Assembly: GCA_937127435.1 (NCBI GenBank)
Contig: CAKZLZ010000104.1
Coordinates: forward strand, 1 to 64,000
DNA: 64,000 nt
Source of the DNA: an uncultured Verrucomicrobiota bacterium
Lineage (GTDB): Bacteria > Verrucomicrobiota > Kiritimatiellia > SS1-B-03-39 > UBA6053
Direction: 5' to 3'
Of this stretch, positions 15,103 through 55,901 are shown in pieces. Under the pieces are notes generated by a model. It did not search any database and had not been told where the DNA came from. It worked only from the letters and a program-made list of their open reading frames with translations. The translations under genes and the position numbers were made by a program. Within the stretch, counting starts at the first letter, position 1; every line of letters begins with the position of its first letter.

Positions 15103-17211
15103 TCAAAATGGTTCACGTTTGGGTGGCATACTTTCGTACCCCCAATGGGAAGCCGTGTAGGCGGTTTTTAGTTTAAGCGTGCCTCCCTTCACAAGGTCAT
15201 GATGATTTATCCATGAATGTGAATGGCGCATATCGTTCCAGTAAACCTGCGCAATCGTTCCGTCCGCCGGACCTTCACGAATAATGGTAAGGGTTTTTTG
15301 GTCCGGACCTACAGGGACTTGAATGTATTCAAAACGTGGAGGGACCAGCAGGTAGTACAACTGGCCCATCACGGGGTACAACCCCAGGGATGTGAGTAAC
15401 CAGAAGGCGGAATGGGATCCCATATCTTCGTTGTCCGGTATTCCGTCCGGTTGATTTTTATAGCGCTTCATTTGTCGGCGGACGGCTTTGGTACTTAAGT
15501 CGGGTCTTCCCGCGTAATGATAAAGAAAAGGACTGTGCAGGATGATTTCTTTCCAGGCAAATATCTCGCTTTCAAAAAAACGATCCAAACGCTCGATCCA
15601 TACCGACGGTCCTCCCATTCGCTGGATGATTTCCGGCAGGACGTGCACCGCACAAAAAATCCATTCTAATCCTGTACCCTCGAAGAAGTAAGGATCTGAG
15701 GAATAATGACCTTCTTCAGGGGGGCGGGAGGGTTTCCTGATATCAAAATCCGGCATCCACTGACCGTTTTGATCTTTAGGATAAAAACATCTTCGTTCGG
15801 GATGCCAGAGGTTCCAAATCTTTTCGGCCTCGCAGTCATAGTGTTCTGCAAGTTGGGTATGCCCGAGCTGCTCCGCCAAACGGGCGATCGACCAATCATG
15901 AAGGCTATATTCGATTTGCCTGGAAACGCATCCGGCGGTTTCATCCGGGGTTACGTATCCGATCTTTTGGTAATTCCCGCGGTATCGTCCGTAAAAATCA
16001 GGATCCGGTGAGTCAGATTCGGCATTTTTGCGCATGAAGTCGAGTGCTTGTGAAGCATCAAAACCGGTCACACCTTTGCGGAAGGCTTCGGAAAGAATAA
16101 GGTCGGCCGAACATCCTCCCTGCATGAATCCATGGTGTTGGGAAATCCAGGCGTCCGGTAACCAACCGGTATGTTTTGCAATGTCTAGCCAACACGCGGC
16201 AAATCGTCCGGAAAGTTTTGGCTTAAAAAGGTGAAAAAACGAATTGGCATTCCGGCAGCTATCCCAGAGGCAAAAGAAATCATCCAGCTGTGGGACTTCT
16301 GATGACCATCGTGGATTTTCCAGAGAAGACCCCAAGTCACTCGGCATTGCATACAGTCGGTGGAGCATTGTATCAAACATGGCAATATCCTCCGGTTCGC
16401 CTTCAAGTGCAAATCTGGATATCTCATCCTGCCATGCCTTTTCCGCCCGTTCCCGCAATACCGAAAAAGGGAAAAGGGCTTGTTGATGAACCGCCTGTTT
16501 CGCCCGGGTAATGCTTACCCTGGAAACCCCGATCCGAAGTTCCAGTGGGTTGTCTGTTTCGGAAAATTGCAGGCGGGCCTGCGGGCCTTCTGATGGATGA
16601 GATGCTTCATCAATGTTCAGAGCAGTCCAAGGTGCATTGCATTTTATATAGAAGAAAAAAGTATAGGGCTGGTCATGTCCCCATCCGCCCTTCAGCTGGA
16701 CACTTCCGGCAAGACAATCCTCACCGGCAGGCTGAAGATCTGCTTGAATACAATCTCCTCCCTTCAAAAGCCGAGTACTGGGATCGATAAATATTGTCGG
16801 GAGGCCGGATGTAAAATGGAAGCGGTATACTGCACAGTCATTGGTGGCGGTGATTTCAGTTTGGATAGTATCCGGACCAAGGCAAACTGAAAAATATCCG
16901 GGCTTGGCGACTGCTTCTTTCGGTTTGAGAGGAGTAGGGAATTTAGCGGTGGGATTCGCGGATGGCATGATGCCGATATTGCCGTAGCGTCCTCCACCTC
17001 CGGTTCCGCTCACATGGATTTGTGAAAAGTTACGAATAGGTTGATCGGAGCGGTATCCGTTCGTGGCTCCCCGTGCCGCTTCAAAGACAACATCCGGCCC
17101 CGGTCGTACAGCTCCAAAGGGAAGATAGGGTCCGCACAAACAATTTCCAGGTTCATCCGATCCTAAAAATGGATTGATGCCGGATATTCGTTGATTCGGG
17201 TCCATTTTCAT
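15103..17211 (-). CDS. GH92-family alpha-mannosidase
   Basis: A 702-residue protein with GH92 signatures along its length: GINPFLGSDEPGNCLCGPYLPFGAVRPGPD (N-terminal beta domain), IHVSGTGGGGRYGNI (the family's FSHTHLSGTG equivalent), a (alpha/alpha)6 barrel with FFCLWDSCRNANSF, and NEDMGSHSAFWLLTSLGLYP, matching the family's G-N-D-D-x-G-x-MSAW..LG-YP motif. GH92 enzymes are calcium-dependent exo-alpha-mannosidases. Unusually for the family there is no signal peptide, so a cytoplasmic role is likely. It starts 34 bases after the PEP-CTERM stop codon at 17246, so PEP-CTERM and GH92 form one transcript facing away from the XylR-like gene at 18129. Confidence 0.9.
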   Translation of the reverse strand: MKMDPNQRISGINPFLGSDEPGNCLCGPYLPFGAVRPGPDVVFEAARGATNGYRSDQPIRNFSQIHVSGTGGGGRYGNIGIMPSANPTAKFPTPLKPKEAVAKPGYFSVCLGPDTIQTEITATNDCAVYRFHFTSGLPTIFIDPSTRLLKGGDCIQADLQPAGEDCLAGSVQLKGGWGHDQPYTFFFYIKCNAPWTALNIDEASHPSEGPQARLQFSETDNPLELRIGVSRVSITRAKQAVHQQALFPFSVLRERAEKAWQDEISRFALEGEPEDIAMFDTMLHRLYAMPSDLGSSLENPRWSSEVPQLDDFFCLWDSCRNANSFFHLFKPKLSGRFAACWLDIAKHTGWLPDAWISQHHGFMQGGCSADLILSEAFRKGVTGFDASQALDFMRKNAESDSPDPDFYGRYRGNYQKIGYVTPDETAGCVSRQIEYSLHDWSIARLAEQLGHTQLAEHYDCEAEKIWNLWHPERRCFYPKDQNGQWMPDFDIRKPSRPPEEGHYSSDPYFFEGTGLEWIFCAVHVLPEIIQRMGGPSVWIERLDRFFESEIFAWKEIILHSPFLYHYAGRPDLSTKAVRRQMKRYKNQPDGIPDNEDMGSHSAFWLLTSLGLYPVMGQLYYLLVPPRFEYIQVPVGPDQKTLTIIREGPADGTIAQVYWNDMRHSHSWINHHDLVKGGTLKLKTAYTASHWGYESMPPKREPF

Positions 17212-17245
17212 ATGGTGTTGCTGCTCAGAACCCTGTTTAGAAAGG

Positions 17246-18001
17246 TTACGGTTCGCGGCGGCGAACTAAAGGAAGCAGCCCCATGAGGGCAAGAGAGAGA
17301 AGCATCACGCTGGAAGGTTCGGGAATCGCCACAATTTGCATCCCGGCAAAGCCCGCCGTTGCACCTGTAACATTATCCACGTTTCGGGCGGAAATCGTGA
17401 AGTCAGTGGAAGTGAGGCCGCTGAATTTTACATAATTCGCAATGGGCGTGTTCCCTGAGCTATAACTGGTGGTGGCCGCCTGCACGAAGCTGCCCTGATA
17501 GTTTGCGTTGTTCTCATCAACATCAGAATAGAACGTTGTGGTACCGTCAGAAAAGGAGAGGGTGTCCCTTACATTGGAACCACTTGAGTTTGAGAGTGTA
17601 CTGAAGTACACGTATACATCATAGCCCGCAGCGGTGAATGCAGAAGATAAGCCGGTGACATTCAAAGTGCTTAAGCCACTGTTTCCTTCAATACCTAGAA
17701 CCCGGTTATACATGGTATAATTCGGGTCCGTAGTGGCGGCTCCGATCGCGGTATAATTTCCAGTTCCGTCTGCGGTAAGTAATGCTCCAGAAGCGGAGCC
17801 GTCCGATAAATCAAGCGCCCGGTTGCTGAAATCCGGAGATGCCGACTCCTGATACCAGCCACTGGAAGCCACGACGCCGGCAATATCCGATACGCCAACG
17901 GCAGTGCTGTTGCCTAGATCAACGTTGATGAGGGCCGCAGCATTTACGGAGAAAAATGCGTAGGAAAAGGTTATGAGCATACAGGGGATTAAACGTTTCA
18001 T
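17246..18001 (-). CDS. PEP-CTERM sorting-domain protein (paralogue of 11058-11822)
   Basis: A 251-residue secreted protein with a GGAG site and signal peptide MKRLIPCMLITFSYAFFSVN. The mature N-terminus ALINVDLGNSTAVG and the segments DGTGNYTAIGAATTD, YVYFSTLSNSSGSN and IANYVKFSGLTS align with the PEP-CTERM protein at 11058. The C-terminus is IPEPSSVMLLSLALMGLL followed by RRR. It is the first gene of a probable operon with the GH92 mannosidase, and it is divergent from a XylR-like regulator, as its paralogue is. Co-expression with an exo-mannosidase suggests a part in handling a mannose-containing glycan. Confidence 0.87.
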   Translation of the reverse strand: MKRLIPCMLITFSYAFFSVNAAALINVDLGNSTAVGVSDIAGVVASSGWYQESASPDFSNRALDLSDGSASGALLTADGTGNYTAIGAATTDPNYTMYNRVLGIEGNSGLSTLNVTGLSSAFTAAGYDVYVYFSTLSNSSGSNVRDTLSFSDGTTTFYSDVDENNANYQGSFVQAATTSYSSGNTPIANYVKFSGLTSTDFTISARNVDNVTGATAGFAGMQIVAIPEPSSVMLLSLALMGLLPLVRRREP

Positions 18002-18071
18002 AGAGGTACTCCATCGGGGTTAAATATATTCGATATACAAACAAAATACTCTTCGTGCTTGAATACCACAA

Positions 18072-18106
18072 TGCGTAGATGCGAATATATTATTATGAAA
18101 TACGAA
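18072..18106. promoter_or_regulatory. Candidate XylR-type operator between PEP-CTERM and regulator
   Basis: TGCGTAGATGCGAA and a second CGAA about 18 bases on align with 11902-11936 (about 24 of 37 positions overall). It lies 23 bases before the regulator start and about 70 bases before the PEP-CTERM start. Confidence 0.45.
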
Positions 18107-18128
18107 ACTTTAAGTCGCTGATATACAT

Positions 18129-19301
18129 ATGAAGTATGAAGAAAAACAAAATGCGGGGAAACGGATTCAAGAGATTTTTCTCGTCCTGCCTCGGAGCCAC
18201 TTGAAAAATCAGGAACTCCTTCGGGGTATTTATGAGTACGCCTACCCGTCGAAATCCTGGGCAATGTTTTTTATTGCCCAGACTCCTGATTCGATTCGGG
18301 ATTTGCATCATACCACTTCCGCTGCCGGACTCATCGGGCGTCTCGGACGTGAGGATTTGGCCGAGGCTGCCGCAGAATTAAATATTCCAGTAGTGAATAT
18401 ACATGGGGGCCGGCGCTTTTCAGGTTTGGTTCAGATCGGCTGTGATATGGAGGCCTGCGGTCGCTTTGCGGCAAAGAATCTTCAGGACTGTGGCGTTCCC
18501 TTTTTTGGTTTTTACGGGTTGCCGGGTGAGGATTTTTCTGACCGACAGCAGGAAGGATTTACCTCTGAACTTCACAAGAAAGGTTTCAAGATTTATCCGT
18601 TTTCACCCCAAGAGTATTTACCGAAAATCGGGGAAAGCAGCCGCAAACATCCTGCCGTTTATTGGCTCCAGGAGTTGCCCAAACCAATCGCGATTTATTG
18701 TCCCACTGATGTGCTTTCCCATGAACTGGCGAACTATTGCCTGCAAGCCCGCTTGGATATTCCGCGGGAAGTGCTGATTTTGGGAGTGGATAACGACGAA
18801 ATTCTTTGCCATGGCAGCCAACCACCGCTTTCAAGTATTCGACAGCCCTACAGGATGGTTGGGCGAAAGGCTGCAGAACTGCTGGATTCCCTGATGGCGG
18901 GAGAGCCTCCACCTGAAATGCCATGTCTCATGGACAGCCCTGAAATCGTTGAACGTCAATCTACCCTCCATTTTCATACCGGGGATCCGATTGTTGAAAA
19001 GGCATTACAGTGGATGCGGGAAGAAATTGGAAGGGGGATTTCAGTTAAAGAAACAGCTAAAGCCATCGGAATATCCCCCCGGGTTCTGGAGCTCCGCTTC
19101 CGTAAAACTTTGGGGATGTCCCCTCAAAGAGAATTACAAAGGCTCCGGGTTGAATTGATTAAAACGCATTTGCGGAATGATGGAAATTCACTTGAACGTA
19201 TTGCGGAGGCCTGTGGGTTGTCGAGTGGAGTTTATATTAGCCAGTTTTTTCAACGAGAAACGGGTATGACTCCCGGTCAGTATCGTAAAATCTTTCAATA
19301 G
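18129..19301 (+). CDS. XylR-like regulator (LacI-type sensor + AraC HTH)
   Basis: A 390-residue protein. The sensor begins EIFLVLPRSHLKNQELLRGI, contains GLIGRLGREDLAEAA and the lobe-2 segment KPIAIYCPTDVLSHELANYC, and ends in SSIRQPYRMVGRKAAELL. The C-terminal 100 residues have two AraC-type HTH units (VKETAKAIGISPRVLELRF and LERIAEACGLSSGVYISQFF, then TPGQYRK). It is close in sequence to the product of 25623-26783, so the two are probably paralogues. Divergent from the PEP-CTERM/GH92 operon, it probably activates it in response to a sugar such as mannose (inference). No clear ribosome-binding site is visible before the ATG. Confidence 0.9.
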   Translation: MKYEEKQNAGKRIQEIFLVLPRSHLKNQELLRGIYEYAYPSKSWAMFFIAQTPDSIRDLHHTTSAAGLIGRLGREDLAEAAAELNIPVVNIHGGRRFSGLVQIGCDMEACGRFAAKNLQDCGVPFFGFYGLPGEDFSDRQQEGFTSELHKKGFKIYPFSPQEYLPKIGESSRKHPAVYWLQELPKPIAIYCPTDVLSHELANYCLQARLDIPREVLILGVDNDEILCHGSQPPLSSIRQPYRMVGRKAAELLDSLMAGEPPPEMPCLMDSPEIVERQSTLHFHTGDPIVEKALQWMREEIGRGISVKETAKAIGISPRVLELRFRKTLGMSPQRELQRLRVELIKTHLRNDGNSLERIAEACGLSSGVYISQFFQRETGMTPGQYRKIFQ

Positions 19302-19327
19302 AGAATCAACATCGGTACATGAGATAG

Positions 19328-19337
19328 AAACCGGTTT
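19328..19337. promoter_or_regulatory. Candidate LacI-family operator (possible autoregulation)
   Basis: AAACCGGTTT is a perfect 10-base palindrome with central CG, extended to GAAACCGGTTTTTC. It lies 39 bases upstream of the LacI start. The leader repeats at 8650 and 13145 carry AAACAGGTTT, one base different. Confidence 0.5.
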
Positions 19338-19376
19338 TTCATTGCGTGATCGTCGAAAAGGTTTCATGAATTTTTT

Positions 19377-20411
19377 GTGAATGAAAAAACATCAGAACCA
19401 GGGTCTCCAACCCTTCAGGATATCGCCAATCAAGTAGGGTTGGCCAAGTCCACGGTCAGTTTGGCCCTGCGGGACAAGGGCACATTGAGTAGTGCCACCC
19501 GTGAGCGGATCAAACGAACGGCCAAGGAGATGGGCTATCGACCCGACCCTCTGCTGGCGGCATTGGTCAGCCGCCGCAGCCGCAGCCCGGCGGATCAGTT
19601 ACCCGTCGCATTTTTGTCCGGAGAAGAATCTGCCGCCGCCAATGCCTATGCCGAGGCCTGCTTGCGGCGGGCAGGAGAATGGGGGTATAAGCTTGAATAC
19701 CGTTTCATTCGCCGTCCACGTGAACTTAAATCACAAATCCGGGAATTGTGGCATCGGGGGACGCGGGGGCTGGTCCTGTTTCATCTTCCTGTTGGTGACT
19801 GGTTGGATTCGGAATTTCTGAGGGATATGGCGCTGGTGCAATGCCGGTTACATCGGGACCCTCTGCCTCTTACCACTGTCCGGTCGGGTATCGTCCGCAA
19901 GACTCATGATACAGTGGAAAAAGTTATGGGTGCGGGGTATCGGCGGGTGGGGAACTTGGTATTGCTGGCGACCGAGGATGCTTCGCACCCGGAGGATCAG
20001 AGTCGGGTCGGTGCGGTACTGGGTGCGCAGGCGCGCTTTCGGCCTGCTTGCTTTTTTCCGGATCCGTTGATGATCGATATGACCCAATCGTCGGAAAATC
20101 ACTGGCGGAAGGTGGCGCAGAAATGGGTTGTGGACCAGCAATTGGACGCGGTGATTTGCACCACCGACGGGTTGGCGGAAATGCTCTTCAGCGACGGGTC
20201 AGAGCGTCCGGCCATTGCTTGTACGCTGTTGACGCATTGTTTGGATGGCACCTTTGCCGGTATGCGCGACAACACGGGGTTGATTGGAGAAAAATGTATG
20301 GAGCTTATCGATCAGTTTATCCGGGCCCGCCGCTTTGGTATTCCCGAACATCCGGTGGAAATGGTTATTCCCTCCGAATGGGTTGCTGGTACTTCACTCC
20401 CACCCGTTTGA
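19377..20411 (+). CDS. LacI-family transcriptional regulator
   Basis: A 344-residue protein. The N-terminal HTH is TLQDIANQVGLAKSTVSLAL with hinge MGYRPDPLLAALVSRR, followed by a periplasmic-binding-protein-like sensor. The start is GTG 19377, because the nearby ATG codons are out of frame. It follows a XylR-like gene by 75 bases and converges with the FGE/PQQ gene. A perfect CG-centred palindrome lies just upstream and may be its own operator; similar decamers occur in the leaders of the amidotransferase and GH105-like genes (8651, 13146), making these possible targets. The effector is unknown. Confidence 0.88.
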   Translation: MNEKTSEPGSPTLQDIANQVGLAKSTVSLALRDKGTLSSATRERIKRTAKEMGYRPDPLLAALVSRRSRSPADQLPVAFLSGEESAAANAYAEACLRRAGEWGYKLEYRFIRRPRELKSQIRELWHRGTRGLVLFHLPVGDWLDSEFLRDMALVQCRLHRDPLPLTTVRSGIVRKTHDTVEKVMGAGYRRVGNLVLLATEDASHPEDQSRVGAVLGAQARFRPACFFPDPLMIDMTQSSENHWRKVAQKWVVDQQLDAVICTTDGLAEMLFSDGSERPAIACTLLTHCLDGTFAGMRDNTGLIGEKCMELIDQFIRARRFGIPEHPVEMVIPSEWVAGTSLPPV

Positions 20412-20426
20412 GAATCCTTTGAAATA

Positions 20427-23400
20427 TTATTTCCAAGCGGAGACGGTTCCTTGATCTGATCCTACGACCACGACTCCTCCGTCCAGTGCGGGACTTGAAT
20501 GTATCGCGCCTCCCACGGGTACTGACCAGCGGATCTGACCGTCCGCTTTATCTAAAGCATACAGGTTTCCATTGTAACTGCCGACAAAGAGGAGGTCTGC
20601 GGTTCCTAATGCGGGAGAAGAGCGGTTGACGCCACCAGTGGAGGTTTTCCATACTTGTTGCCCGGTTTCCCGGTCCAGTGCATACACGTGCTTGTCCCGG
20701 TGTCCGAAATACACCCGGTTTGCATCCAGGGAGAGGGAAGAGATTCCCGGATGCTGGGTATCCCAGTCCGGGTTGTCTTTCGGCAGGAAGCGCCATTTTA
20801 GGTCATATTTTGAGTCATGGTTTCCTTTGATCCCCCGGTTATCTTCGAGGTTAAAGGCTACCACCCCACGGATATATGATACACATTCTCCATCCCGTGC
20901 TGCCGGGGTAAACACACCATTATCAATTCCACCGTCAATCTCATACACCTTCCGTTCGGTCATGGCGTCGACTAGTACGGTGGCCTGACTTCCGCGGAAA
21001 TACCCGATGAATCCCTGATGGAAAAATGCGGAGCAACCGAGACGTCCGGGGCCGTGTCCATCCCGGTATTGCCATACCTCGTCCCCACTTGTGACATCCA
21101 GTCCTAACATACCTTTCCATGGTACAGAAACAAAGATGATCCCGGCCAAGGTTTGGCCGTTTCGATGCGGAATGGGTCCGGGCAGTACCAAGGGGGAATC
21201 ATCCCAGTACCCCCCACGTTTGACCCACACTTCCTCTCCCGTTTCGGCGTTGAGAGCAAACACGCCTTTGCCGTTGCTGAAAAAGACGGCTCCATTCAGC
21301 ACCGCGGCTGAGGAGCGGATGGGAGATCCTGATTCATAGCTCCATTTAACCGCGCCTGTTTGCAGATCCACAGCGATCATACGTCCGTTGTCCGCGCCCA
21401 CAAATACGGTTCCTTCGACAATGACCGGTGAGGCCTTAACCGGAGCCCCCAGCTCCATCTTCCAAATTTGATTGGGCTGATTCAGAGGCCCTGGGGACGC
21501 GAATTCTCCGGTCCGTCCTGTGTTTCCCCTCCAGAGCTGTCCCGGCAATGCGGTGTTCTCCGGCAAGGCCGTCAACACCTTTTCAGGGACATAGGGTGGG
21601 GGCTCTGACGGGTGTGCTCCCGCTTCACAACGTATCACACGGAAACCAATTTCCGGATAGGCCTTGGCCAGTGGAATGTGAATAGGCACCCGGGGTGATC
21701 CGCCGAATCCGAGCATTAAAGACGTTTCTCTCTCATCTGTCCGGAAGGATCCACCCAGCGGGACAGGCAGTGCTTTCCCTCTGGGATTGTCGTTTAGATA
21801 ATAGGAGGCCCCGCCACCCATGGCCCATTCGAACACGTTCCCGGCCATATCGAAAAGGCCAAATGCATTTGCAGATTTTTGGCCAACCGGATGGCTGTGA
21901 TCTTCGCTGTTTGCTCCTATCCAGGCGTGATTCGTAACGACCGCATCCTTCCAAGGGAATCCCCGCGGACTGCGGTTGCCTGCTCGATAGGCGTATTCCC
22001 ACTCCCATTGTGTTGGCAAGCGGTATCCATTTCCTTCCCAGCGTATGTAGAAGGTTTGCGTCCCCTTGTTGTCTAATGTGTGATGTGAAATTTTCCGCGG
22101 ACTATTTTCAACTCTGAAGCGGCGTGCCCGGCGCATCACTTGAGTTTTTGATTCGTCGAGATAATATACGGGTGTTTTATCCTCCATTTCTGAAAGGGCA
22201 TTGCAAAACAGCATGGCGTCCAGATGCGAAATTTGCGTCACCGGCTGTGTCACAGTAAATTCGATTCCCGGTTCACTCCAATCCATACTGCCCAGATCCC
22301 CATCACGATCAAATTCGTATCCGTTCTTTACAGCCCAGGCATACACCCGTCTCCATTGATCGTACGTGGTCTCGGTTGCAGCCATGGCAAAGGGTGCAAT
22401 CCGAACCTCCGCTCCATCGTTTCTCGGATAACTGCCGCCCGGAAGTTGTCGCATTGCCATTTCGGGAGGGGTTACAGGATTCGGTAATTCCATTGGATGA
22501 AAAAACGATTGCCAGTGAGCCCATGCGTTATTGGCATTCGCGGGTGCTCTTCCGTTGGATCTGATAATTGTCAATTCTGCTGCATTTGCCGTTGCTTCGC
22601 CGGGCAAAACCGGACGATATCCCCCTGCGGTCCATTTGATAAAGATATCGGGACGTTGATCCCGTTTGTTTTCATCCTGACGGTCCAATACCACCCGGAA
22701 GACCTGTTTAAATTCCGGATCGAGGTAGAACATGGGTTCCACGCCTTGCGACTCGGAAAAGGCATTGCACCAGGCCAGGGCATCCAGAGCAGTTATGTCG
22801 GTCACGGGTAAACCGTCTTGCCAGGGACCGCGTCCACGGGCCATGTCGCCCATGTCCCCATCCCGGTCAAACACGTAGGGAGCAAACAAGCCCGTTTGAT
22901 TCCGGTTACCCCAGGCATAGGTCTTTCGCCATATACGGTAGCTGACGGTAAAAGGACCTGGAGGGGGAGCTTTTTCATCTACTACCGCTTTCATCGAAAA
23001 CGCATACCATTTCACCCAGAGGGAGGCAGGCCCCAGATCGGGTTTGGCAATCCACCATCCTGCAGCGGTCACGTTATCGAAATTCCGGGGTTGGAAATCT
23101 GCGGTCTGCGGATCGAAACTTATTTCATATGGCGCTTTAGGCTCATAGACCGCCCAACGGGTATCCAGCGGTTTCACACGAAATAAAGTGTGTAGTTCAC
23201 CCCCAAAGGAATTTTCGGAAATGTAAAAGTGATCGCCGTTGCGAACCACAAAACGTGCTTCTTTATAATCTTTCCAATAACGGGAAATATACACGGCCAA
23301 CTCACTGTCCCGGTCAAATGAAACCAGATGTACGTCTCCGCCATTTAGAAAATCTTCTTTTTGCCAAAGCCAAAGTCCGAAGGTTTTCAATCCGATTTCT

Positions 23401-23828
23401 CCTCCCTCGGTGGCATAGGAGTGGAGATTAAAATCATCACGCAGGTTATGGTCGATATTGATGCCGCCCTCACTCCAGCGGGGCCGCTTGTTGGCGAAGA
23501 AGGTGACCAACCCTCCATAAAAGCGGCTGTTAAGCCCCTTTTGGTTGTAAAACGACCCTTTAGGATTGAGCGGCTCTTGCAGCGAAAAAGGATAAAAACT
23601 GATGCCGTCATCTCCAGTATTCCCGTCCCCATCCACGTCTACAGGGTTGGGGCCATGTTTTGAGCCTTTGTACAATTCGGTCACTGGTTCCGCCCGGTAA
23701 ATGGGCAATCCTCTTACTCCTCCGTGCCAGGCGTAGTCATCCCCGAAATCAATGACGGGCACATTGCCAGCATGGAGGGAATTCATCACTGAACAAAACA
23801 AAGCCAAATAACAAAGAGAAATTTTCAT
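20427..23828 (-). CDS. Secreted FGE-fold/PQQ-propeller fusion protein, copy A
   Basis: A 1133-residue protein with a 20-residue signal peptide. Three parts can be seen. (1) Residues about 22-300: a domain I do not recognise, beginning VPVIDFGDDYAWHGG, with GSFYNQKGLNSRFYGG and GGINIDHNLRDDFNLHSYAT. (2) Residues about 300-760: two FGE-sulfatase (SUMF1-fold) units, the first degenerate, the second full (AMAATETTYDQW, YRLPTQWEWEYAYRAG, FGLFDMAGNVFEW, GGSFRT, YPEIGFRV). (3) Residues about 790-1133: a PQQ-type beta-propeller (repeated VKWSYESGSPIRSSAAV-like blades, YALDRETGQQVWK). The cysteine pair that true formylglycine-generating enzymes carry near GGS..GFR is absent, so sulfatase activation is unlikely. 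It is 116 bases from a divergent S15 hydrolase gene and paralogous to 52398-55901. Confidence 0.83.
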   Translation of the reverse strand: MKISLCYLALFCSVMNSLHAGNVPVIDFGDDYAWHGGVRGLPIYRAEPVTELYKGSKHGPNPVDVDGDGNTGDDGISFYPFSLQEPLNPKGSFYNQKGLNSRFYGGLVTFFANKRPRWSEGGINIDHNLRDDFNLHSYATEGGEIGLKTFGLWLWQKEDFLNGGDVHLVSFDRDSELAVYISRYWKDYKEARFVVRNGDHFYISENSFGGELHTLFRVKPLDTRWAVYEPKAPYEISFDPQTADFQPRNFDNVTAAGWWIAKPDLGPASLWVKWYAFSMKAVVDEKAPPPGPFTVSYRIWRKTYAWGNRNQTGLFAPYVFDRDGDMGDMARGRGPWQDGLPVTDITALDALAWCNAFSESQGVEPMFYLDPEFKQVFRVVLDRQDENKRDQRPDIFIKWTAGGYRPVLPGEATANAAELTIIRSNGRAPANANNAWAHWQSFFHPMELPNPVTPPEMAMRQLPGGSYPRNDGAEVRIAPFAMAATETTYDQWRRVYAWAVKNGYEFDRDGDLGSMDWSEPGIEFTVTQPVTQISHLDAMLFCNALSEMEDKTPVYYLDESKTQVMRRARRFRVENSPRKISHHTLDNKGTQTFYIRWEGNGYRLPTQWEWEYAYRAGNRSPRGFPWKDAVVTNHAWIGANSEDHSHPVGQKSANAFGLFDMAGNVFEWAMGGGASYYLNDNPRGKALPVPLGGSFRTDERETSLMLGFGGSPRVPIHIPLAKAYPEIGFRVIRCEAGAHPSEPPPYVPEKVLTALPENTALPGQLWRGNTGRTGEFASPGPLNQPNQIWKMELGAPVKASPVIVEGTVFVGADNGRMIAVDLQTGAVKWSYESGSPIRSSAAVLNGAVFFSNGKGVFALNAETGEEVWVKRGGYWDDSPLVLPGPIPHRNGQTLAGIIFVSVPWKGMLGLDVTSGDEVWQYRDGHGPGRLGCSAFFHQGFIGYFRGSQATVLVDAMTERKVYEIDGGIDNGVFTPAARDGECVSYIRGVVAFNLEDNRGIKGNHDSKYDLKWRFLPKDNPDWDTQHPGISSLSLDANRVYFGHRDKHVYALDRETGQQVWKTSTGGVNRSSPALGTADLLFVGSYNGNLYALDKADGQIRWSVPVGGAIHSSPALDGGVVVVGSDQGTVSAWK

Positions 23829-23845
23829 AAGGACATCCTGACTTT

Positions 23846-23860
23846 AAAGCGGTTTCGCTT
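23846..23860. promoter_or_regulatory. Inverted repeat in the FGE-PQQ/S15 divergent promoter region
   Basis: AAGCG-GTTT-CGCTT (23847-23860) is a perfect inverted repeat with 5-base arms, 18 bases before the FGE/PQQ start. It overlaps AAAGCGGTTT, one base away from the palindrome at 19328; such a match is expected about twice by chance in a window this size. Confidence 0.35.
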
Positions 23861-23944
23861 CAATAAGCCAAAAAATAAACATATTCATTTTTTTAGACTC
23901 TTCTCCCGCTTTTCGATCTGTGGGGACTTGGGTATAGTACTTTT

Positions 23945-25633
23945 ATGAAACTGCCACATACCTTTTATGTACTCATTGGATTGAGTTTCTTTTTGTCTAT
24001 CCTTCCTGCACAACAGGCAGGACGTGAATGGGAGGAGACGGGTTCGGATAAAGAGATTGGCCCCATACTGGAATCCTTTCCGGACGGAGCTATACATCGA
24101 TTCGAAATGCTTCCGGACCGGGACGGAACTCAGTTGGCCACTACGATTTTTTTGCCGCCGGGTGAGGGGCCTTGGCCAGTGGTGTTTTGCAAAGGATTCT
24201 ATGGGCGTTTCACGATGAAAGGTTATGCAAAATCCGCAGGCAAGGACGGACAGGTGGTTTTTGTGATGCAAGATGCGAGGGGAACCGGTGATTCTGAAGG
24301 GAAGGGCACATATGATTCTGAATCTTTCGCCATTCATCAGCAGGACCTGGATGATTCTTTAAAATGGGTTTCCAAACAGGCCTGGTGTAACGGCCGGATA
24401 GGGGTGCGGGGCGGCAGCGGGAACGGGGTGGCGGCATTTCAGGCTTTTCTATCCGGGAACCCCGCGTTGAAAGTGGCGGATGGAGGGAATTCAAGTGGCT
24501 TTTCCAGTTACTGGATGGAACAAAATCGCGTGCGCCGCGGATTATATGACTGGATGAAAAATAATGGATTGGATATTCAGAAAAACGAACTCCCGACCAG
24601 GGTGCCTGCGATGTATCCGGAGGTGTTGAACAGGTTGTCGGAGCAAAAACCCAACCCGGCCTCGACCATGATCGTGAATGCTGCCTGGCATGATATTGTG
24701 AGTGAAAGTGCGTTGGATTTGTTTGCGGCGCAGTCGGAGAATGCCCAAATTTATGTGACCGTTTCTCCGGGTTGGCATGGGGGGCAAACCCAGATTCAAA
24801 AGCAAGCGTGGCCCAATCTTTGGAACCGAGGCATTTCGGTTCCGAAATTTTCAGACCTGCTTAAGAAAGACCTGAAACCTGAGCCCTCATTTATCCGCTA
24901 TTATCTTATGGGAGATCCGACAGATCCGGATAGTTTAGGAAATGAATGGAAAATTACCCGGGAATGGCCGGTTCCGTATTCGCCCACATCGTTTTATCTG
25001 CATGGGGACGGCAGCCTGCAGCCCTCACCCTCCCAAAAGGAGGGCTTCCTTTCGTATGTGTATGATCCGGCAGATCCTGCGCCTGCTTATGGGGGGAACG
25101 GAAGCTATCGCATTCAGATGGGCCCTTTGGATCAGCGTCCTTTATCGGACCGAAAAGATGTCCTGCGGTTTGTAAGCGAACCACTGTCGCAGCCCTTGAC
25201 GTTGGTGGGAAAATTTTCTGCCGATCTTTATATGTCCACCGATGCACCGGATACAATGTTTGTGGTGAAGGTGATCGATATTCATCCGGATGGGACAGAA
25301 ACCTGGCTCAGAGAATCGGCGGCGATGGGGCGTTATGCGGAAGGCTTGGATGGAAAGACCTCTCTGAAACCGGATGGGGTTTATCATCTGAAACTGGATC
25401 TGTGGAGTACCGCGAAAGTGATAAATGCAGGTCATCGATTGGGGGTGTTGATCACCAGTTCCGCCGTACTCGATAAAGAGGGTCCGCGACCTCAGCCGGT
25501 ATTTGAAGTGCATCCCAATGTTTGGACGACTTCCCGTAAAAATCCTGAGATAAAAGCGGCGACGCAACGCATTTGGTTGAGTCCTGAATATCCCAGTTCC
25601 ATTACATTACCCGTGGTCATAGGTGGAAAATAA
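23945..25633 (+). CDS. CocE/NonD-type (peptidase S15) alpha/beta hydrolase, secreted, copy A
   Basis: A 562-residue protein with a signal peptide (about residues 1-22, ILPAQQ). The catalytic domain has the S15/CocE layout: FYGRFTMKGYAKS, VFVMQDARGTGDSEGK, the nucleophile elbow RGGSGNG with Ser158, and VSPGWHGG with a candidate His. The C-terminal jelly-roll domain of the family follows (LTLVGKFSADLYMSTDAPDT, FVVKVIDIHPDG, GHRLGVLITSS). Family members cleave esters or X-Pro amides; the substrate here is unknown, and esterified polysaccharide or its amide-linked substituents are possible. It is divergent from the FGE/PQQ gene and overlaps the next XylR-like gene by 11 bases, so the hydrolase and regulator are co-transcribed. 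Paralogue: 40805-42574. Confidence 0.85.
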   Translation: MKLPHTFYVLIGLSFFLSILPAQQAGREWEETGSDKEIGPILESFPDGAIHRFEMLPDRDGTQLATTIFLPPGEGPWPVVFCKGFYGRFTMKGYAKSAGKDGQVVFVMQDARGTGDSEGKGTYDSESFAIHQQDLDDSLKWVSKQAWCNGRIGVRGGSGNGVAAFQAFLSGNPALKVADGGNSSGFSSYWMEQNRVRRGLYDWMKNNGLDIQKNELPTRVPAMYPEVLNRLSEQKPNPASTMIVNAAWHDIVSESALDLFAAQSENAQIYVTVSPGWHGGQTQIQKQAWPNLWNRGISVPKFSDLLKKDLKPEPSFIRYYLMGDPTDPDSLGNEWKITREWPVPYSPTSFYLHGDGSLQPSPSQKEGFLSYVYDPADPAPAYGGNGSYRIQMGPLDQRPLSDRKDVLRFVSEPLSQPLTLVGKFSADLYMSTDAPDTMFVVKVIDIHPDGTETWLRESAAMGRYAEGLDGKTSLKPDGVYHLKLDLWSTAKVINAGHRLGVLITSSAVLDKEGPRPQPVFEVHPNVWTTSRKNPEIKAATQRIWLSPEYPSSITLPVVIGGK

Positions 25634-26783
25634 GTCTACAAGAGAGGTGTTTCTTATTCTGCCGAGCCATCAGGAGGCCAATCGGGAGATTATCCGGGGC
25701 ATTTATGAATACGCCTATCCTGAATTTCGCTGGGCCTTTTTCCATGTGAATCAGACGGTCCGGGCCATTGAACATATCAGTCAGTTAAAAACAGCTTCAG
25801 GAATCATCGGATTGTTGGGGCGGGAGGATTTAGCGGATGCGGCTGCGAAGAGTTCGTTGCCGGTGGTGAATATTCATGACGGGGAGGTGTATGCGGGACT
25901 GCCGCAGGTGGGGGAGGATGGCTATTTGATCGGGGCCTATGCTGCGGAGTGTTTGCAGGATACGGGAGCCGAACATGTGGGCTTTTATGGGCTGAAAGGG
26001 GCGAATTTTTCCGAAGTTCGTTGCCGCGGATTTTGTGATACGCTGAAGAAATTGGGGCGGAAGGATGTGAACGTATTTTTTCGGGATCCGGCGATGTTAC
26101 AATCGATGGAGCATTTTGGGGAGCGGAACCCGGCCCTGGAATGGCTTGAAGCCTGCCCCAAGCCTATCGCTATTTATTGTGCGAATGATACCTTTGCGAA
26201 TGAATTGTCTGTGGCCTGTTTTCAAGCCGATATCCGGATTCCTCAGGAGGTGATGTTGCTGGGAACGGATAATGACTCGATCTGGGCAAAGGTGGCTCAT
26301 CCGTCATTGTCTTCAATACAGTTACCGTATCGGGAAATCGGACGTCGGGCAGCGCAGATGTTGCAACAGTTGATTCAGGGTGATGCGATTGATGAAACGC
26401 TCTTGCGTATTCATCAGCCGGAAATCGTGGAACGTCAGTCGACTGCACGTGTACACGCGTCCGATCCTTTAGTGGAAAAAGCGTTGTTGTGGATGCAGGA
26501 AAGGGGACAGACGGGTGCAGGCATGCACGAAGTGGCAAAGGTGGCCGGATGCTCGACCCGGGCTCTGGAAATCCGGTTTCAAAAAGCCCTTGGCCGTTCA
26601 CCCGGATCGGAGTTAAAGCGCATTCGCCTGACTTTTGTAAAGCAACTGCTCCGGGAAGCAGATTGGACGATTGAGACGATTGCGGAGGACTGCAATTTCT
26701 CCAGTGGCGCATACCTTAGTCAGTTCTTTAAGCGCGAAACCGGGATGACTCCGGGGGCCTATCGGAAGACCTTTAGGCTTTGA
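25623..26783 (+). CDS. XylR-like regulator (LacI-type sensor + AraC HTH)
   Basis: A 386-residue protein, closely similar to the product of 18129: REVFLILPSHQEANREIIRG, GIIGLLGREDLADAAAKS, KPIAIYCANDTFANELSVAC, and two AraC HTH units (MHEVAKVAGCSTRALEIRF and IETIAEDCNFSSGAYLSQFF, then TPGAYRK). The GTG start at 25623 overlaps the end of the S15 gene and gives the same N-terminal spacing as its paralogue. Its place in the S15 operon, opposite the FGE/PQQ gene, suggests a sugar-type ligand controls that pair. This is the main hint that the FGE/PQQ and S15 proteins belong to carbohydrate metabolism. Confidence 0.9.
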   Translation: MENKSTREVFLILPSHQEANREIIRGIYEYAYPEFRWAFFHVNQTVRAIEHISQLKTASGIIGLLGREDLADAAAKSSLPVVNIHDGEVYAGLPQVGEDGYLIGAYAAECLQDTGAEHVGFYGLKGANFSEVRCRGFCDTLKKLGRKDVNVFFRDPAMLQSMEHFGERNPALEWLEACPKPIAIYCANDTFANELSVACFQADIRIPQEVMLLGTDNDSIWAKVAHPSLSSIQLPYREIGRRAAQMLQQLIQGDAIDETLLRIHQPEIVERQSTARVHASDPLVEKALLWMQERGQTGAGMHEVAKVAGCSTRALEIRFQKALGRSPGSELKRIRLTFVKQLLREADWTIETIAEDCNFSSGAYLSQFFKRETGMTPGAYRKTFRL

Positions 26784-26803
26784 TTTTATCTCAAAACCTT
26801 TAG

Positions 26804-26832
26804 TTGTAAATGTCGTGCTTTCGTGTTATCGT
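26804..26832 (+). promoter_or_regulatory. Possible promoter of the toxin-antitoxin pair (leaderless?)
   Basis: TTGTAA, 17 bases, then an extended -10 (TGtTATCGT) place transcription start at about 26839, the first base of the antitoxin ATG. No ribosome-binding site precedes that ATG, so the transcript may be leaderless. Confidence 0.4.
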
Positions 26833-26838
26833 GCAAAT

Positions 26839-27072
26839 ATGAATGTTACGGTAAAACTTGATGATGAATTGGTAAAAATGGCCCGGCATCGTGCGGTGGA
26901 CCGTGGCCTATCGTTGTCCAAATGGCTTGGAGAGTTGATTCGATCCGATTTAAAGGGACAAGCCCGCTCAAATCCATCCAACCTTCTTCAGGCAATCGGA
27001 AACGATGAGCTTGCGGATTTTGAGTTGGAAATACCAACGGATAAGGCAGCTATTCGGGATGTGGAGTGGTGA
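26839..27072 (+). CDS. VapB-type ribbon-helix-helix antitoxin
   Basis: A 77-residue protein. The N-terminus MNVTVKLDDELVKMARHRAV followed by GLSLSKWLGELIRSDL is a ribbon-helix-helix DNA-binding motif, as in many VapB/CopG antitoxins. The acidic C-terminus (DELADFELEIPTDKAAIRDVEW, in parts) would bind the toxin. Its TGA stop overlaps the toxin ATG (TGATG). It should neutralise the PIN-domain RNase and repress its own promoter. The upstream in-frame codons from 26815 are unlikely to be translated. Confidence 0.83.
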   Translation: MNVTVKLDDELVKMARHRAVDRGLSLSKWLGELIRSDLKGQARSNPSNLLQAIGNDELADFELEIPTDKAAIRDVEW

Positions 27073-40804: not shown

Positions 40805-42574
40805 ATGAAACTGATATTCTATATACTAACAACACTTATTTTTATGGTGGCGAATGTTCGTGCCAATGAAACGCAGGAAACCTCGGAAACGAATCACGAG
40901 CTCAAGCGGTATCTGGAACAGCACCCTGAGTCCGACACCGACCGTGACGGTGTGCTTGGCTGGTGGGAAAAAGAGCAGCATCTCTCGGCGGATGCCCTGG
41001 AGGAATTAGTCGAGGGAACGGTTCATAAACATGTCCGCATTCCCATGCGTGATGGCTATGAACTCATGGCGGAGGTTTTTTTACCAGCGGATGACGGGAA
41101 ACCAACTCCTGTCGTGGTAACTCGTGCTGGATACGGACGTTGGCGTGCAGCCGGGTATGCAAAGTCCGCAAATAAAGATGGTATGGCTTTTGTGACCACA
41201 CAGGTGCGCAGGTATGACGGCGGAAAACATGAGAAATTTAAGGATTCGGAAAGTTCGTTCGTACAGATTGATGACATGTATGACATCTGTGAATGGCTGG
41301 CGGAGCAACCTTGGTGCAATGACAGAATTGGCACCATCGGTGGCTCTGGAAACGGTTTTGCTGGGAGTATGGGCTTCTGGTCGTTGCACCCTGCCTATAT
41401 TGCCTGCCGCGCCGGAAACACGGCAGGGAATGTTAAATATTATTGGGGCTATCAGAACAGCGTTGCCACCTACCAAATTCGCTGGGTTAACTCCACGATT
41501 GGAAACGTTCAAGGTAGCAAACGGCCAACGCTGCCCAAACATGGCTACGATTATGATTCCTGGATCAAATGGATAACCGAAAGGGCAAAAGACAGCGACA
41601 ATTACTATTTTAATGGTACCGGTTGGTATGACCCGTTGTTCCAAGCTGCCCTTGACGATTTTATGGCACTCCAGCATACCGGAAAGGCTTATGTCGACAT
41701 TGAGCCACGCGGTCATGGCGGCACAAGTGGTTTCGGCGAGAAAAGGAACTTCAAGTTCCCGATTCATAATGGCCCTGCTGGAAAGTGGGGTGTCGGTACT
41801 TTTCCAAGTTTCAAAGACCTGCTTAAGGGTAAAGAGCCCGAGAATCCGAAGTCTCTGATCCGGTATTTCCTGATGGGCGATGTCAGAGACAGTAGTGCGC
41901 CCGGGAATGAGTGGGTATCCGCAAACACCTGGCCTCCGGTATCAACCAAAACTAATTTATATTTTACCGAAGGCGGTAAGTTGTTGAGCTCGAAGCCAAC
42001 AGGCAATGCAAGAGTCAGTTATACCTATGACCCGAAGGATCCGACCCCGAGTTTCGGAGGGTATTACTCCTGGAATCCCAAACTTTCCGGTCCACACGAC
42101 CAGAGCGAATTGCGTAAGCGCGAGGATGTGCTTTACTTTGAAACGGACCCGCTTCAAGCACCTGTCAATGTGACTGGACGCATTTCCGCAAAACTTTTCA
42201 TCAGCAGTAGTGCAAAAGACACGCAGTTTATTGTGAAACTGGTGGATATTTATCCGGATGGTTATGAGGCAATCATGCGCGAAGCCCCGTTTATGGCGCG
42301 TTATGCAGAAGGCTATGATCAACCAGCCCCCCTGGAGGGCGGAAAGGTCTATGAACTCGATGTGGATATGTGGAGTACTGCAAATGTTTTCAATAAAGGG
42401 CACAAAATCGGGGTCATCGTGTGCAGCGCTGCCAAGGAATCATACGAAGTTCACCCCAACACCTATGAGCAGATTGATCTTGCTGATTGGGGCGAACAAT
42501 CGGTTGTCGCTGAAAATATAATTCATCTTTCAGCCAAGCACCCGTCGCACATCACCCTGCCGGTTGTGGAGTAG
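40805..42574 (+). CDS. CocE/NonD-type (peptidase S15) alpha/beta hydrolase, secreted, copy B
   Basis: A 589-residue protein with signal peptide (about residues 1-20, VANVRA) and an exceptionally good ribosome-binding site (AAGGAGGT). A short helical N-terminal insert contains ESDTDRDGVLGWWEKEQ, a D-x-D-x-D-G loop that may bind calcium. The S15 core follows: AGYGRWRAAGYAKSANKDG, nucleophile elbow IGGSGNGF with Ser181, candidate His in EPRGHGG, and a C-terminal jelly roll (VTGRISAKLFISSSAKDTQF, VKLVDIYPDG, GHKIGVIVCSA). It is paralogous to the product of 23945 but does not share its operon partners: here the creatininase-family gene follows 27 bases later, so the two are probably co-transcribed. 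The substrate is unknown. Confidence 0.85.
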   Translation: MKLIFYILTTLIFMVANVRANETQETSETNHELKRYLEQHPESDTDRDGVLGWWEKEQHLSADALEELVEGTVHKHVRIPMRDGYELMAEVFLPADDGKPTPVVVTRAGYGRWRAAGYAKSANKDGMAFVTTQVRRYDGGKHEKFKDSESSFVQIDDMYDICEWLAEQPWCNDRIGTIGGSGNGFAGSMGFWSLHPAYIACRAGNTAGNVKYYWGYQNSVATYQIRWVNSTIGNVQGSKRPTLPKHGYDYDSWIKWITERAKDSDNYYFNGTGWYDPLFQAALDDFMALQHTGKAYVDIEPRGHGGTSGFGEKRNFKFPIHNGPAGKWGVGTFPSFKDLLKGKEPENPKSLIRYFLMGDVRDSSAPGNEWVSANTWPPVSTKTNLYFTEGGKLLSSKPTGNARVSYTYDPKDPTPSFGGYYSWNPKLSGPHDQSELRKREDVLYFETDPLQAPVNVTGRISAKLFISSSAKDTQFIVKLVDIYPDGYEAIMREAPFMARYAEGYDQPAPLEGGKVYELDVDMWSTANVFNKGHKIGVIVCSAAKESYEVHPNTYEQIDLADWGEQSVVAENIIHLSAKHPSHITLPVVE

Positions 42575-52397: not shown

Positions 52398-55300
52398 ATG
52401 AATCTACACTCAATACTCACCTCCCGCATTAGATTTGCATGGATTGCAACGCTCACAACCTTTGTCTTATCTTCAGCAACATCCTTTGCACAGCGCAACG
52501 TTCCCGTGATTGATTTTGGTGATGACCTATGTTGGCATGGCGGCACATGGGGCTTGCCTCACTATCGCAACGATTATGTCAAACAACTGTACAAAGGCTC
52601 TAAAGACGGTGACTGCACTACTGATGTTAGCGGCAATGGCAGCACGGAAAAAGACTCAATCGCTTATTATGAGTTTTCAATGGATGTGCCCTACAATCCT
52701 ATAGGCTCTTTCTACAACATACACGGTAATAACACTCGCTTCTACGGAGGCGCGGTAACCTACTGGGCGAATCGAAAACCCAACTGGCAAGAAGGCGGCA
52801 TCAATATCGACCACGAATTACGCGACGACTTCAACCTTCACTCTTACGCAACGGAAGGCGGAGACATTGCCCTGCGTACCTTTGGCGTATGGTTGTGGAA
52901 AAAAGAAGACTTCATGAATGAAGGAAACCAATTCAAAGTATCTTCCGACCGCAACAGCCGAATAGCCCTATACGTTTCTCGTTACTTTCAAGATTACGAA
53001 GAAATGCGTTTTATTGTTCAAGATGGCAATGAGTTCTTCATCTCAGAGAAACACCCCGATTCAGGTAAAGCCCATCACCTGTATGAAATGAGGCTATCCG
53101 ACACAAAGTGGGCACCCTACAATCCTCAAGCGCCTTACGACATTGAATTTGACCCATCCACTGCGAACTTTAGCTCACATCAATTTAAAGATATACAGTC
53201 CGCTGGATGGTATGTTGCCAAACCCACTTTAGGAAAAGCCGCACTATGGGTTAAATGGTATGCCTTTGGTTTAGACGCTGTAGTCAATCGCCCAGAATCT
53301 CCCAGTTACCTTGTGCCAATGAAAAGCCTATCGGGCGGTTCATTTATTAGCAAAGAGCCTGTCAGTTATGGACAATGGCGGACGATTTATCAGTGGACTA
53401 ACCGTAACCAATACGACATGCACGAAGGACACGTTTATGATCGCGATGGCGACATGGGCATGATGTCCCTTGATAATGCGACACACTCAAGCGCAGACCC
53501 CGTAACCGACATCACCGCGCTTGATGCGCTTTCTTGGGCAAACGCATTATCCGCTTATGAAGGTTTGGAGCCCTTGTTTTACACCGATGAAGGGTTTCAA
53601 AATGTTTTACGCAAAGTGATGGATCGCCAGCAACCCGGTAAGGAGAATTGGCGTCCTGAGGTTTTTGTCAAATGGAGTGCAAACGGCTTTCGCCCCGCAA
53701 CTGAGCAAGAACGTCCAGGAAGTGCAGATGGTTTTTACCTAGTACGCTCTAATAGCGTCCCTCCTAGCGATGCGTCCAGCGCGTTTGCAGATTGGGCAAA
53801 ACGCTATCAAGCCCTCGACGTCAAAGCCGTAGCCAGTAATCCGAACCTGAAACTTATTCCCGTTCAAGGCGGCTCCTACATCCGCAAAGATGGTGCGGAG
53901 ACCCAAATCAAATCTTTTTATCTAGCCGAAACGGAGACTACTTTTGAACAGTGGAAAAAAGTCTATGCTTGGGCAGTCAATAACGGCTATACCTTCGATC
54001 GTGATGGTGATCTTGGAAGTATGGACTGGAGTGAACGGGGCACTGTCTTCACTCAAGACGAACCGGTGACTCAAATCTCACACCTTGATGTTTTACTATG
54101 GTGCAATGCTCTGTCCGAAATGGAAGGCAAAACCCCTGCTTACTACACGGATAAGGCCATGACTGACGTGATAAAAAGCGTTCGACGTTTTCGAACCGAA
54201 AACACAGAAAAAGGCCCTGCATACTATAGGCTTCCTGATCAAGGGCAGATGACTTTTTATGTGCGCTGGGATGTAGATGGTTATCGCATCCCCAGTAATT
54301 GGGAATGGCAATATGCCTATCGCAGTGGCAACAATGCTCAAAACACTTACCCATGGGGATCAGAACCCATCGGTGACTATGCTTGGTATGGCGAAAATAG
54401 TTCGGATCGCACACACCCCGTTAAACAAAAGAAACCCAATCCATGGGGGTTCTATGACATGGCTGGAAACGTTTTTGAATGGACCATGGGCGGAGGAGAT
54501 TCCTACTACCTCGTAGATAATCCTCGCGGTAAGAATATGCCCGTAGCCATGGGTGGTTCTTTCCGCACTGAAGGCAGCAGAGAAATCGCCCGCATGATGG
54601 AATTAGGCGGCAAGCCTTCCGCTGCGATCAAATCTCCACTTGCTATTGCATACCCTGAGATCGGATTCCGCGTAGCACGCTACGATGCAGATATTCATCC
54701 AAGGGAAGCCCCCCCATACATCCCCGAAAAAGTTTTGCTATTTGATCCTGCGCAAGTACCTACAAACCCTACGCTTCAAGGTGAAGTTTGGCGTGGAAAC
54801 ATTGCTCGAACAGGTGAATTCAACGCCAAAGGCCCTTTACGAGAACCACGACTAAAATGGAAGTTTGATACAGGCAAATCTGTCAAAGCCTCTCCAGTAA
54901 TCGTCAACGGCATTGTCTATATCGGCAGTGATGATGGTAATTTCTATGCGATAGACCTTGCCTCAGGAGAAGAAAAATGGCGCGTTTCAACAGGATCAAA
55001 AATTCGCTCATCTGCTGCAGTCTACGCAGGAAAAGTATTCTTTTTTAATGGCAAAGGAGCTTTCGCTCTTGATGCCAACACAGGGCAAGAAATCTGGAGA
55101 AAAGGACGCGGATTATGGGATGACTCACCTCTGATTGTGCCAGGACCTATCCAGTATAAAAACGGGGAAACCCTCGATGGTATTGTTTTCTATAGTCAAC
55201 CTTGGAAAGGTCTAGTCGGTCTCAATATAGCCGACGGCACAGCGGTCTGGCACTACCGAGACCAACATGGTCCTGGAAAAGATGGTTGCTCCGCGCTTGT

Positions 55301-55901
55301 TCACCGCGGACACATCATTCATTTTCGCGGCAGTCAGGCAACCGAAGTGGTTAACCTACTCACTGAACGTCAAGCCTATGCCATCGACGGCGCGGTGGAT
55401 TTTGGATACTTTACTCCTGCTGCTCGCGACGGTGTTGCTTACTCTTTCATTCGAGGCGTCGCTGCTTTTGATATTATGGCTAACATTCCCAATGGCACAA
55501 AAGGAAGTCACATGAAGAATTACGACTTTAAGTGGCGTTTTTATCCTGGCAAAGAAAAAGGATGGAGCTACCAGAACCATGGGATTTCCTCCATCTCTGT
55601 TGATGCTACAACCGTTTACTTCGGACATAGCAATACCTCAGTTTATGCTTTAGACCGTGAGACAGGAGACATAAAATGGGAAATTCAAACCAATGGTATT
55701 AATCGCTCATCACCTGCCTTAGGCACAGGAAATCTTTTATTCATCGGCAGCTATGACAAGCATGTTTACGGGATTTCAAAATCCGACGGCAAGATTGTTT
55801 GGAAGTTTGCAACCAAAGGCGCAATCCACAGTTCCCCTGCGATCGAAGGCTCAACACTTGTTATTGGCTCTGATGATGGCAGCGTCTACGCCTTAGAATA
55901 A
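52398..55901 (+). CDS. Secreted FGE-fold/PQQ-propeller fusion protein, copy B
   Basis: A 1167-residue protein with the same three-part layout as the product of 20427. After the signal peptide (about 32 residues, SSATSFAQ) comes the unrecognised domain (VPVIDFGDDLCWHGG, GGINIDHELRDDFNLHSYAT); then FGE-sulfatase-fold units, the second complete (YLAETETTFEQW, YRIPSNWEWQYAYRSG, YDMAGNVFEW, GGSFRT, YPEIGFRV); then a PQQ-type propeller (ASPVIVNGIVYIGSDDGNFY, YALDRETGDIKWE). As in copy A, the FGE catalytic cysteine pair is missing. Copy B is AT-richer (26 and 29 G/C of 60 at 52681-52740 and 54301-54360, versus 34 of 60 at 21661-21720 in copy A). It is followed 23 bases later by creatininase copy B. 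Confidence 0.83.
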   Translation: MNLHSILTSRIRFAWIATLTTFVLSSATSFAQRNVPVIDFGDDLCWHGGTWGLPHYRNDYVKQLYKGSKDGDCTTDVSGNGSTEKDSIAYYEFSMDVPYNPIGSFYNIHGNNTRFYGGAVTYWANRKPNWQEGGINIDHELRDDFNLHSYATEGGDIALRTFGVWLWKKEDFMNEGNQFKVSSDRNSRIALYVSRYFQDYEEMRFIVQDGNEFFISEKHPDSGKAHHLYEMRLSDTKWAPYNPQAPYDIEFDPSTANFSSHQFKDIQSAGWYVAKPTLGKAALWVKWYAFGLDAVVNRPESPSYLVPMKSLSGGSFISKEPVSYGQWRTIYQWTNRNQYDMHEGHVYDRDGDMGMMSLDNATHSSADPVTDITALDALSWANALSAYEGLEPLFYTDEGFQNVLRKVMDRQQPGKENWRPEVFVKWSANGFRPATEQERPGSADGFYLVRSNSVPPSDASSAFADWAKRYQALDVKAVASNPNLKLIPVQGGSYIRKDGAETQIKSFYLAETETTFEQWKKVYAWAVNNGYTFDRDGDLGSMDWSERGTVFTQDEPVTQISHLDVLLWCNALSEMEGKTPAYYTDKAMTDVIKSVRRFRTENTEKGPAYYRLPDQGQMTFYVRWDVDGYRIPSNWEWQYAYRSGNNAQNTYPWGSEPIGDYAWYGENSSDRTHPVKQKKPNPWGFYDMAGNVFEWTMGGGDSYYLVDNPRGKNMPVAMGGSFRTEGSREIARMMELGGKPSAAIKSPLAIAYPEIGFRVARYDADIHPREAPPYIPEKVLLFDPAQVPTNPTLQGEVWRGNIARTGEFNAKGPLREPRLKWKFDTGKSVKASPVIVNGIVYIGSDDGNFYAIDLASGEEKWRVSTGSKIRSSAAVYAGKVFFFNGKGAFALDANTGQEIWRKGRGLWDDSPLIVPGPIQYKNGETLDGIVFYSQPWKGLVGLNIADGTAVWHYRDQHGPGKDGCSALVHRGHIIHFRGSQATEVVNLLTERQAYAIDGAVDFGYFTPAARDGVAYSFIRGVAAFDIMANIPNGTKGSHMKNYDFKWRFYPGKEKGWSYQNHGISSISVDATTVYFGHSNTSVYALDRETGDIKWEIQTNGINRSSPALGTGNLLFIGSYDKHVYGISKSDGKIVWKFATKGAIHSSPAIEGSTLVIGSDDGSVYALE

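Follow-up and report, generated by a model that had tools for sequence, protein, structure and literature searches.

A predicted secreted Kiritimatiellia protein combining an unnamed all-beta domain, FGE-fold units without the catalytic cysteines and a BamB-like propeller

Proteins with an FGE-sulfatase domain (PF03781) are commonly annotated as sulfatase activators, Kiritimatiellota included. The catalytic and copper-binding cysteine pair of human FGE is Cys336/Cys341 (PMC4505483). For Pontiella, a member of the Kiritimatiellota, an annotation-based count gave five FGE genes and a single anaerobic maturing enzyme (PMC10880615). The FGE-type C-type lectin fold is also found in proteins of diversity-generating retroelements (DGRs), and the C-type lectin fold is a general ligand-binding fold (PMC6328139). 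The protein described here is encoded on a 64,000-nucleotide stretch of contig CAKZLZ010000104.1 from an uncultured Kiritimatiellia bacterium, which is referred to as the window. The folds of its FGE units and of its propeller are already known, while its N-terminal domain (N-domain) and the combination of these parts are unnamed in the libraries searched, and literature searches of open-licence papers returned no paper on this architecture. In our estimate there is about an even chance that the protein belongs to a polysaccharide-degradation locus, is induced by sugar and secreted, and binds carbohydrate or serves as a scaffold without catalysing a reaction itself, in partnership with a secreted acyl hydrolase.

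Architecture of the protein and its paralogue

The focal gene (20427..23828, minus strand) is an open reading frame that runs from 23828 to 20427 and encodes 1133 residues, comprising a signal peptide-like start, the N-domain, a truncated FGE-fold unit 1, FGE-fold unit 2 and a BamB-like propeller. Pfam assigns FGE-sulfatase to residues 474-732 (E = 1.4e-25; 90.8 bits against a PF03781 cut-off of 23.3) and PQQ/BamB repeats to about residue 780 to 1131. The first 450 residues have no Pfam match, and NCBIfam holds no family for the N-terminus. Reading of the frame and the Pfam assignments bear out the preliminary description, which had recognised FGE motifs (WEWEYAYRAG, MAGNVFEW, GGSFRT, EIGFRV) and a PQQ propeller in this frame. 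It had also placed a paralogue at 52398, and this gene (52398..55901, plus strand) is real, encoding 1167 residues with the parts in the same order and 55% identity to the focal protein over the full length. Its view of two FGE units stands for unit 2, which is complete, but not for the first (about residues 286-450), which is intact in neither window copy. The full-length model of the focal protein is of moderate confidence (pLDDT 75, pTM 0.60).

FGE-fold units, propeller and sulfatase activation

FGE-fold unit 2 (residues 456-735; 21624..22463, minus strand) resembles SUMF1/FGE in its fold motifs and its Pfam match, but the focal protein lacks equivalents of Cys336/Cys341, carries its units in tandem, and is predicted to be secreted together with the N-domain and the propeller. 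The place of FGE's two catalytic cysteines, the stretch from GGS to GFR (residues 691-731; 21636..21758, minus strand), is Cys-free; the only cysteines after the signal peptide are at 354, 542, 734, 932 and 982, and the paralogue is Cys-free between residues 569 and 964. Like the signal peptide-like start, this loss of the FGE site can be read directly from the sequence. Cysteines were also listed for 18 family proteins, homologues gathered through the N-domain, none of which has a Cys pair between GGS and GFR (0/18). The sole widely conserved cysteine of the family is in the helix motif WCNALS. The absence of the pair from both window copies had been noted at the outset, and comparison of the listing with the human Cys336/Cys341 extends it to all the family proteins listed. 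Nor does the FGE cysteine motif occur in any of the 10 PF03781 stretches detected in the genome to which the window belongs (~93% complete), so that the cysteine-less state is the norm for FGE-fold proteins of this genome and alone is not remarkable. The genome encodes further FGE-fold proteins that lack the cysteines (L093/L095, on G000:C120, L094 and L096), among them a 2202-aa open reading frame in which two or more FGE units are present, as well as two proteins that end in PEP-CTERM-like tails.

The Pfam match and the presence of sulfatases ~4 kb from the paralogue could suggest that the focal protein is a formylglycine-generating enzyme for secreted sulfatases. We regard this as extremely improbable and as already refuted at the sequence level, given that the family lacks the Cys pair, that neither window sulfatase (motifs CGPSR and CTPAR) has a visible signal peptide, whereas the focal protein does (all judged by eye), and that the genome encodes an anSME with a clear match (517 bits against a cut-off of 349). 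FGE activity of the focal protein was thus rejected on the missing cysteines and on this bona fide anSME, which gives firm support to the initial opinion that sulfatase activation was unlikely. Since an anSME is present and the FGE-fold genes found are all cysteine-less, the sulfatases of this genome appear to have another route of activation and an activator other than the focal family; a true FGE may sit in the missing part of the assembly. One genome in which the FGE-fold genes found all lack the catalytic cysteines, and in which an anSME is present, indicates that annotation of such genes as sulfatase activators can mislead.

By sequence, the solved structures closest to unit 2 are 5aoh (8.8e-19) and then the DGR variable protein TvpA (2y3c; 3e-15), whereas true FGEs score much worse (about 1e-4 to 5e-3); PvdO and PorK also rank behind these two. 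The best relative, 5aoh, was deposited as 'Spore coat protein CotH' and is presumably CarF, but it is a single-domain protein from another context. In TvpA the same fold is used for binding, but there it is C-terminal, whereas the unit of the focal protein is internal. The focal gene was rejected as a DGR target, as no reverse transcriptase match (PF00078) was found in the genome and positions 17000-27000 contain no repeats of at least 40 bases. Within unit 2 is a DRDGDxGSM loop, frequent in FGE units of the family, which looks like a calcium loop and may act as one.

Some other enzymatic activity of unit 2, such as that of an oxidoreductase or a ligase in the manner of EgtB or PvdO, is improbable. 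The fold hosts several chemistries, PvdO and EgtB models match unit 2 weakly, and polar residues are conserved in it; however, what is conserved consists of motifs shared by the fold in general (GYRLPTxxEWE, GNVxEW and GFR), and the DinB domain, where the iron ligands of EgtB lie, is absent here. The truncation of unit 1 (residues 286-450; 22479..22973, minus strand) also speaks against it. Both window copies, and the two relatives nearest to them, have lost the C-terminal half of this unit, from GNVxEW to GFR, whereas in most relatives outside the window's subclade unit 1 has a C-terminal half ending in GFR. The truncated state in the window's clade suits a structural role more than a catalytic one.

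The propeller (about residues 780-1133; 20430..21491, minus strand) shares its repeats (PF13360, PF13570) with BamB and other PQQ-repeat propellers, with a TMt of about 0.7-0.8 to BamB, but it is fused to FGE units, has no BAM context and falls well below the cut-off of the BamB equivalog TIGR03300 (105.9 bits against 285.2). Unlike PQQ dehydrogenases, it has no adjacent Cys-Cys pair, its only cysteines being C932 and C982, and a PQQ enzyme was rejected on this, the one PQQ feature examined. The propeller is fused in relatives from Armatimonadia (L043), a Bacteroidota MAG (L044) and L082/L116. It is a gene of its own, directly downstream, in a Planctomycetota MAG (L041) and in a MAG named Chthoniobacter (L042), where the separate propellers have their own signal peptide-like starts and are ~54% identical to the focal propeller. 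In L111 a propeller gene lies next door, and in L047-L052 the protein stops after FGE unit 2. A propeller that is fused in some genomes and encoded by an adjoining gene in others indicates joint action of the parts in a single compartment. A plasmid search gave propeller matches only, among the matches listed.

The N-terminal domain and the spread of the family

The N-domain spans ~265 residues (20-285; 22974..23771, minus strand), a refinement of the ~270 residues proposed initially, and its AF2 model is all-beta (pLDDT 87, pTM 0.88). Pfam gives no match to it, even with the threshold relaxed to E=10, PDB sequences give nothing significant (best E 1.2), and the model has no match at E<=0.001 among PDB folds and viral structures. 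Weak fold matches to NDUFAF1, FlaA1, a chondroitinase carbohydrate-binding domain, and ephrin-receptor and MAM domains suggest the jelly-roll class at most. A test for a carbohydrate-binding module found no CBM family in Pfam and no confident CBM fold in the PDB; with no PDB match at E<=0.001, structural comparison points to no carbohydrate-binding site in the domain. The earlier statement that the N-terminus matches nothing therefore holds for Pfam, NCBIfam and the PDB, but the domain does have homologues in PEP-CTERM proteins and in several phyla. In related genomes, profile searches identify the same all-beta domain standing alone in small PEP-CTERM surface proteins of ~270-310 aa (e.g. L003, L037, L038; E about 1e-11 to 1e-20), and in the window's own genome a 292-aa protein (C52:5118-5684) consists of the N-domain alone, with a PEP-CTERM-like tail by eye. 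Together with the T9SS sorting tail of one relative (L044), these stand-alone forms suggest that the family acts outside the cell. In a 1489-aa relative (L085:274-4740), the N-domain occurs a second time, in diverged form, after the FGE units and behind a BACON-like segment.

What distinguishes the FGE-fused family from the PEP-CTERM proteins, apart from the stand-alone state of the latter, is the signature EGxxNxNHELRDDxN (residues 120-134; 23427..23471, minus strand), which is absent from the stand-alone versions. In the FGE-fused family, E120 and N124 are conserved in 20/20 proteins and H127 and D132 in 19/20. Polar residues so strongly conserved might just as well form a site for catalysis or for a metal, and because of this signature the main rival explanation is that the N-domain is itself an enzyme (e.g. 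a metal-dependent glycan hydrolase or lyase) with E120, N124, H127, D131 and D132 in its active site, the FGE units and the propeller being accessory binding modules. We consider this unlikely, although it is the alternative to be taken most seriously. It would account for a short, invariant, charged and polar stretch that is confined to the FGE-fused version, is kept across several phyla and is placed by the model in a loop region. On the other hand, the domain has no similarity to an enzyme family in Pfam, NCBIfam or the PDB, all-beta sandwich-like folds bind more often than they catalyse, and calcium binding or stabilisation of the fold would be other possible functions of the motif. A small chance may also be given to the signature marking a new secreted class of glycan-active or glycan-sensing proteins, in which the beta domain would be the active site, the FGE units and the BamB-type propeller would recognise substrate, and an S15 partner and XylR-like control would complete the system.

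Judged by sequence, the N-domain is a protein family without a Pfam entry that is spread over several phyla. Its fusion to two FGE units is found in Kiritimatiellota, Verrucomicrobiota, Planctomycetota, Armatimonadota and one Bacteroidota MAG, bearing in mind that the named matches are MAGs or genomes of Planctomycetota, Armatimonadota, Bacteroidota, Kiritimatiellae and Verrucomicrobia and that taxon names of MAGs may be imprecise. With stand-alone versions counted, the N-domain profile was found in 21/388 genomes of the phylum at E<=1e-6 and in 26/288 genomes of the class at 1e-3. Horizontal exchange is suggested because the window copies are nearer to the proteins of L041 and L042 than to a protein of the same genus (genome G003). 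In trees, each window copy has as its partner a protein of a different phylum or class, and a topology holding both window copies together was rejected (p=0.010, for a group chosen after the tree had been seen); in a propeller-only tree the pairing of the copies is not resolved. A recent tandem duplication was tentatively set aside on these grounds, and the two copies are tentatively regarded as separate lineages. A phage origin was rejected, as the N-domain is not encoded on any viral contig and no viral structure matched it at E<=0.001.

Gene neighbourhood and proposed role

Divergent from the focal gene and ~116 bp away lies a gene for a secreted S15/PepX_C (CocE-type) hydrolase (23945..25633, plus strand). 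The second S15/PepX_C hydrolase of the genome is also in the window (40805..42574, plus strand), these being the only two S15 genes of the genome. S15 genes adjoin the family gene in 3 of about 19 loci (the window, L052 and L110), and the neighbour in L052 is the one S15 gene of its genome. The focal gene is adjoined by a LacI-type regulator gene (19377..20411, plus strand), whose product is similar to a Pfam LacI protein at 617-1615, and is flanked on both sides by XylR-like regulators with Peripla_BP_3 and AraC HTH domains (18129..19301 and 25623..26783, both plus strand). Such regulators occur within ~5 kb in 7 of the about 19 loci (two of the 7 being close relatives), and are found close to the homologues in L004, L049, L050, L051, L052 and L116. 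In the whole genome ~6 full-length XylR-like regulators were found, three of them within the window; linkage to S15 and XylR-like genes is argued here from the rarity of both gene types in the genomes, as distinct from formal statistics. Other neighbours in the window are GH92, GH94, an alpha-amylase and sulfatases, and those of the relatives are AXE1, SASA, GDSL, GH27, GH38, GH78, GH106 and GH130.

The protein could instead be a chaperone-like or assembly-like factor that folds or mounts secreted enzymes, such as the S15 hydrolase or the giant esterase-Ig proteins of the window, at the outer membrane, as do BamB and GldK/PorK. We hold this to be rather unlikely. The propeller is BamB-like, the FGE unit matches models and structures of GldK/PorK, which are FGE-fold T9SS proteins, and the gene is linked to secreted hydrolases; the gene stands, however, next to regulators and genes specific to a substrate, not next to secretion genes, and two copies in one locus and the patchy spread noted above (21 of 388 genomes) do not fit a housekeeping assembly factor.

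The structural or binding role favoured in the preliminary description fits the evidence best, although binding, the nature of what is bound and the S15 partnership are matters that we infer. It is hypothesized that, upon the appearance of a breakdown sugar, a regulator switches the focal gene on. The N-domain, via its E..N..H..DD signature, and FGE unit 2 would then hold a glycan, or a partner that is glycosylated, on the surface of the cell. The propeller would add another surface for binding protein or glycan and would thus position the acyl hydrolase on the substrate of that enzyme. The N-domain offers both a conserved site and a candidate hydrolase partner that can be tested.

Other genes of the window were also noted. 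Two adjacent, divergent genes (27517-35298, minus strand; 35449-40743, plus strand) encode giants of 2593 and 1764 aa that are 42% identical over about 900 residues; in the smaller, an N-terminal part that is alpha/beta hydrolase-like by eye precedes Ig/fn3 domains. Many gene families of the window have two or three members that have diverged, as though a gene set had been assembled repeatedly at this locus: regulators (11977-13131, 18129-19301, 25623-26783), S15 hydrolases (23945-25633, 40805-42574), creatininases (42602-43321, 55925-56644) and PEP-CTERM proteins (11058-11864, 17246-18001). Downstream of the paralogue and a creatininase, a gene at 56754-59579 (plus strand) encodes a secreted protein of 941 aa with no Pfam match that is glycoside hydrolase-like by eye.
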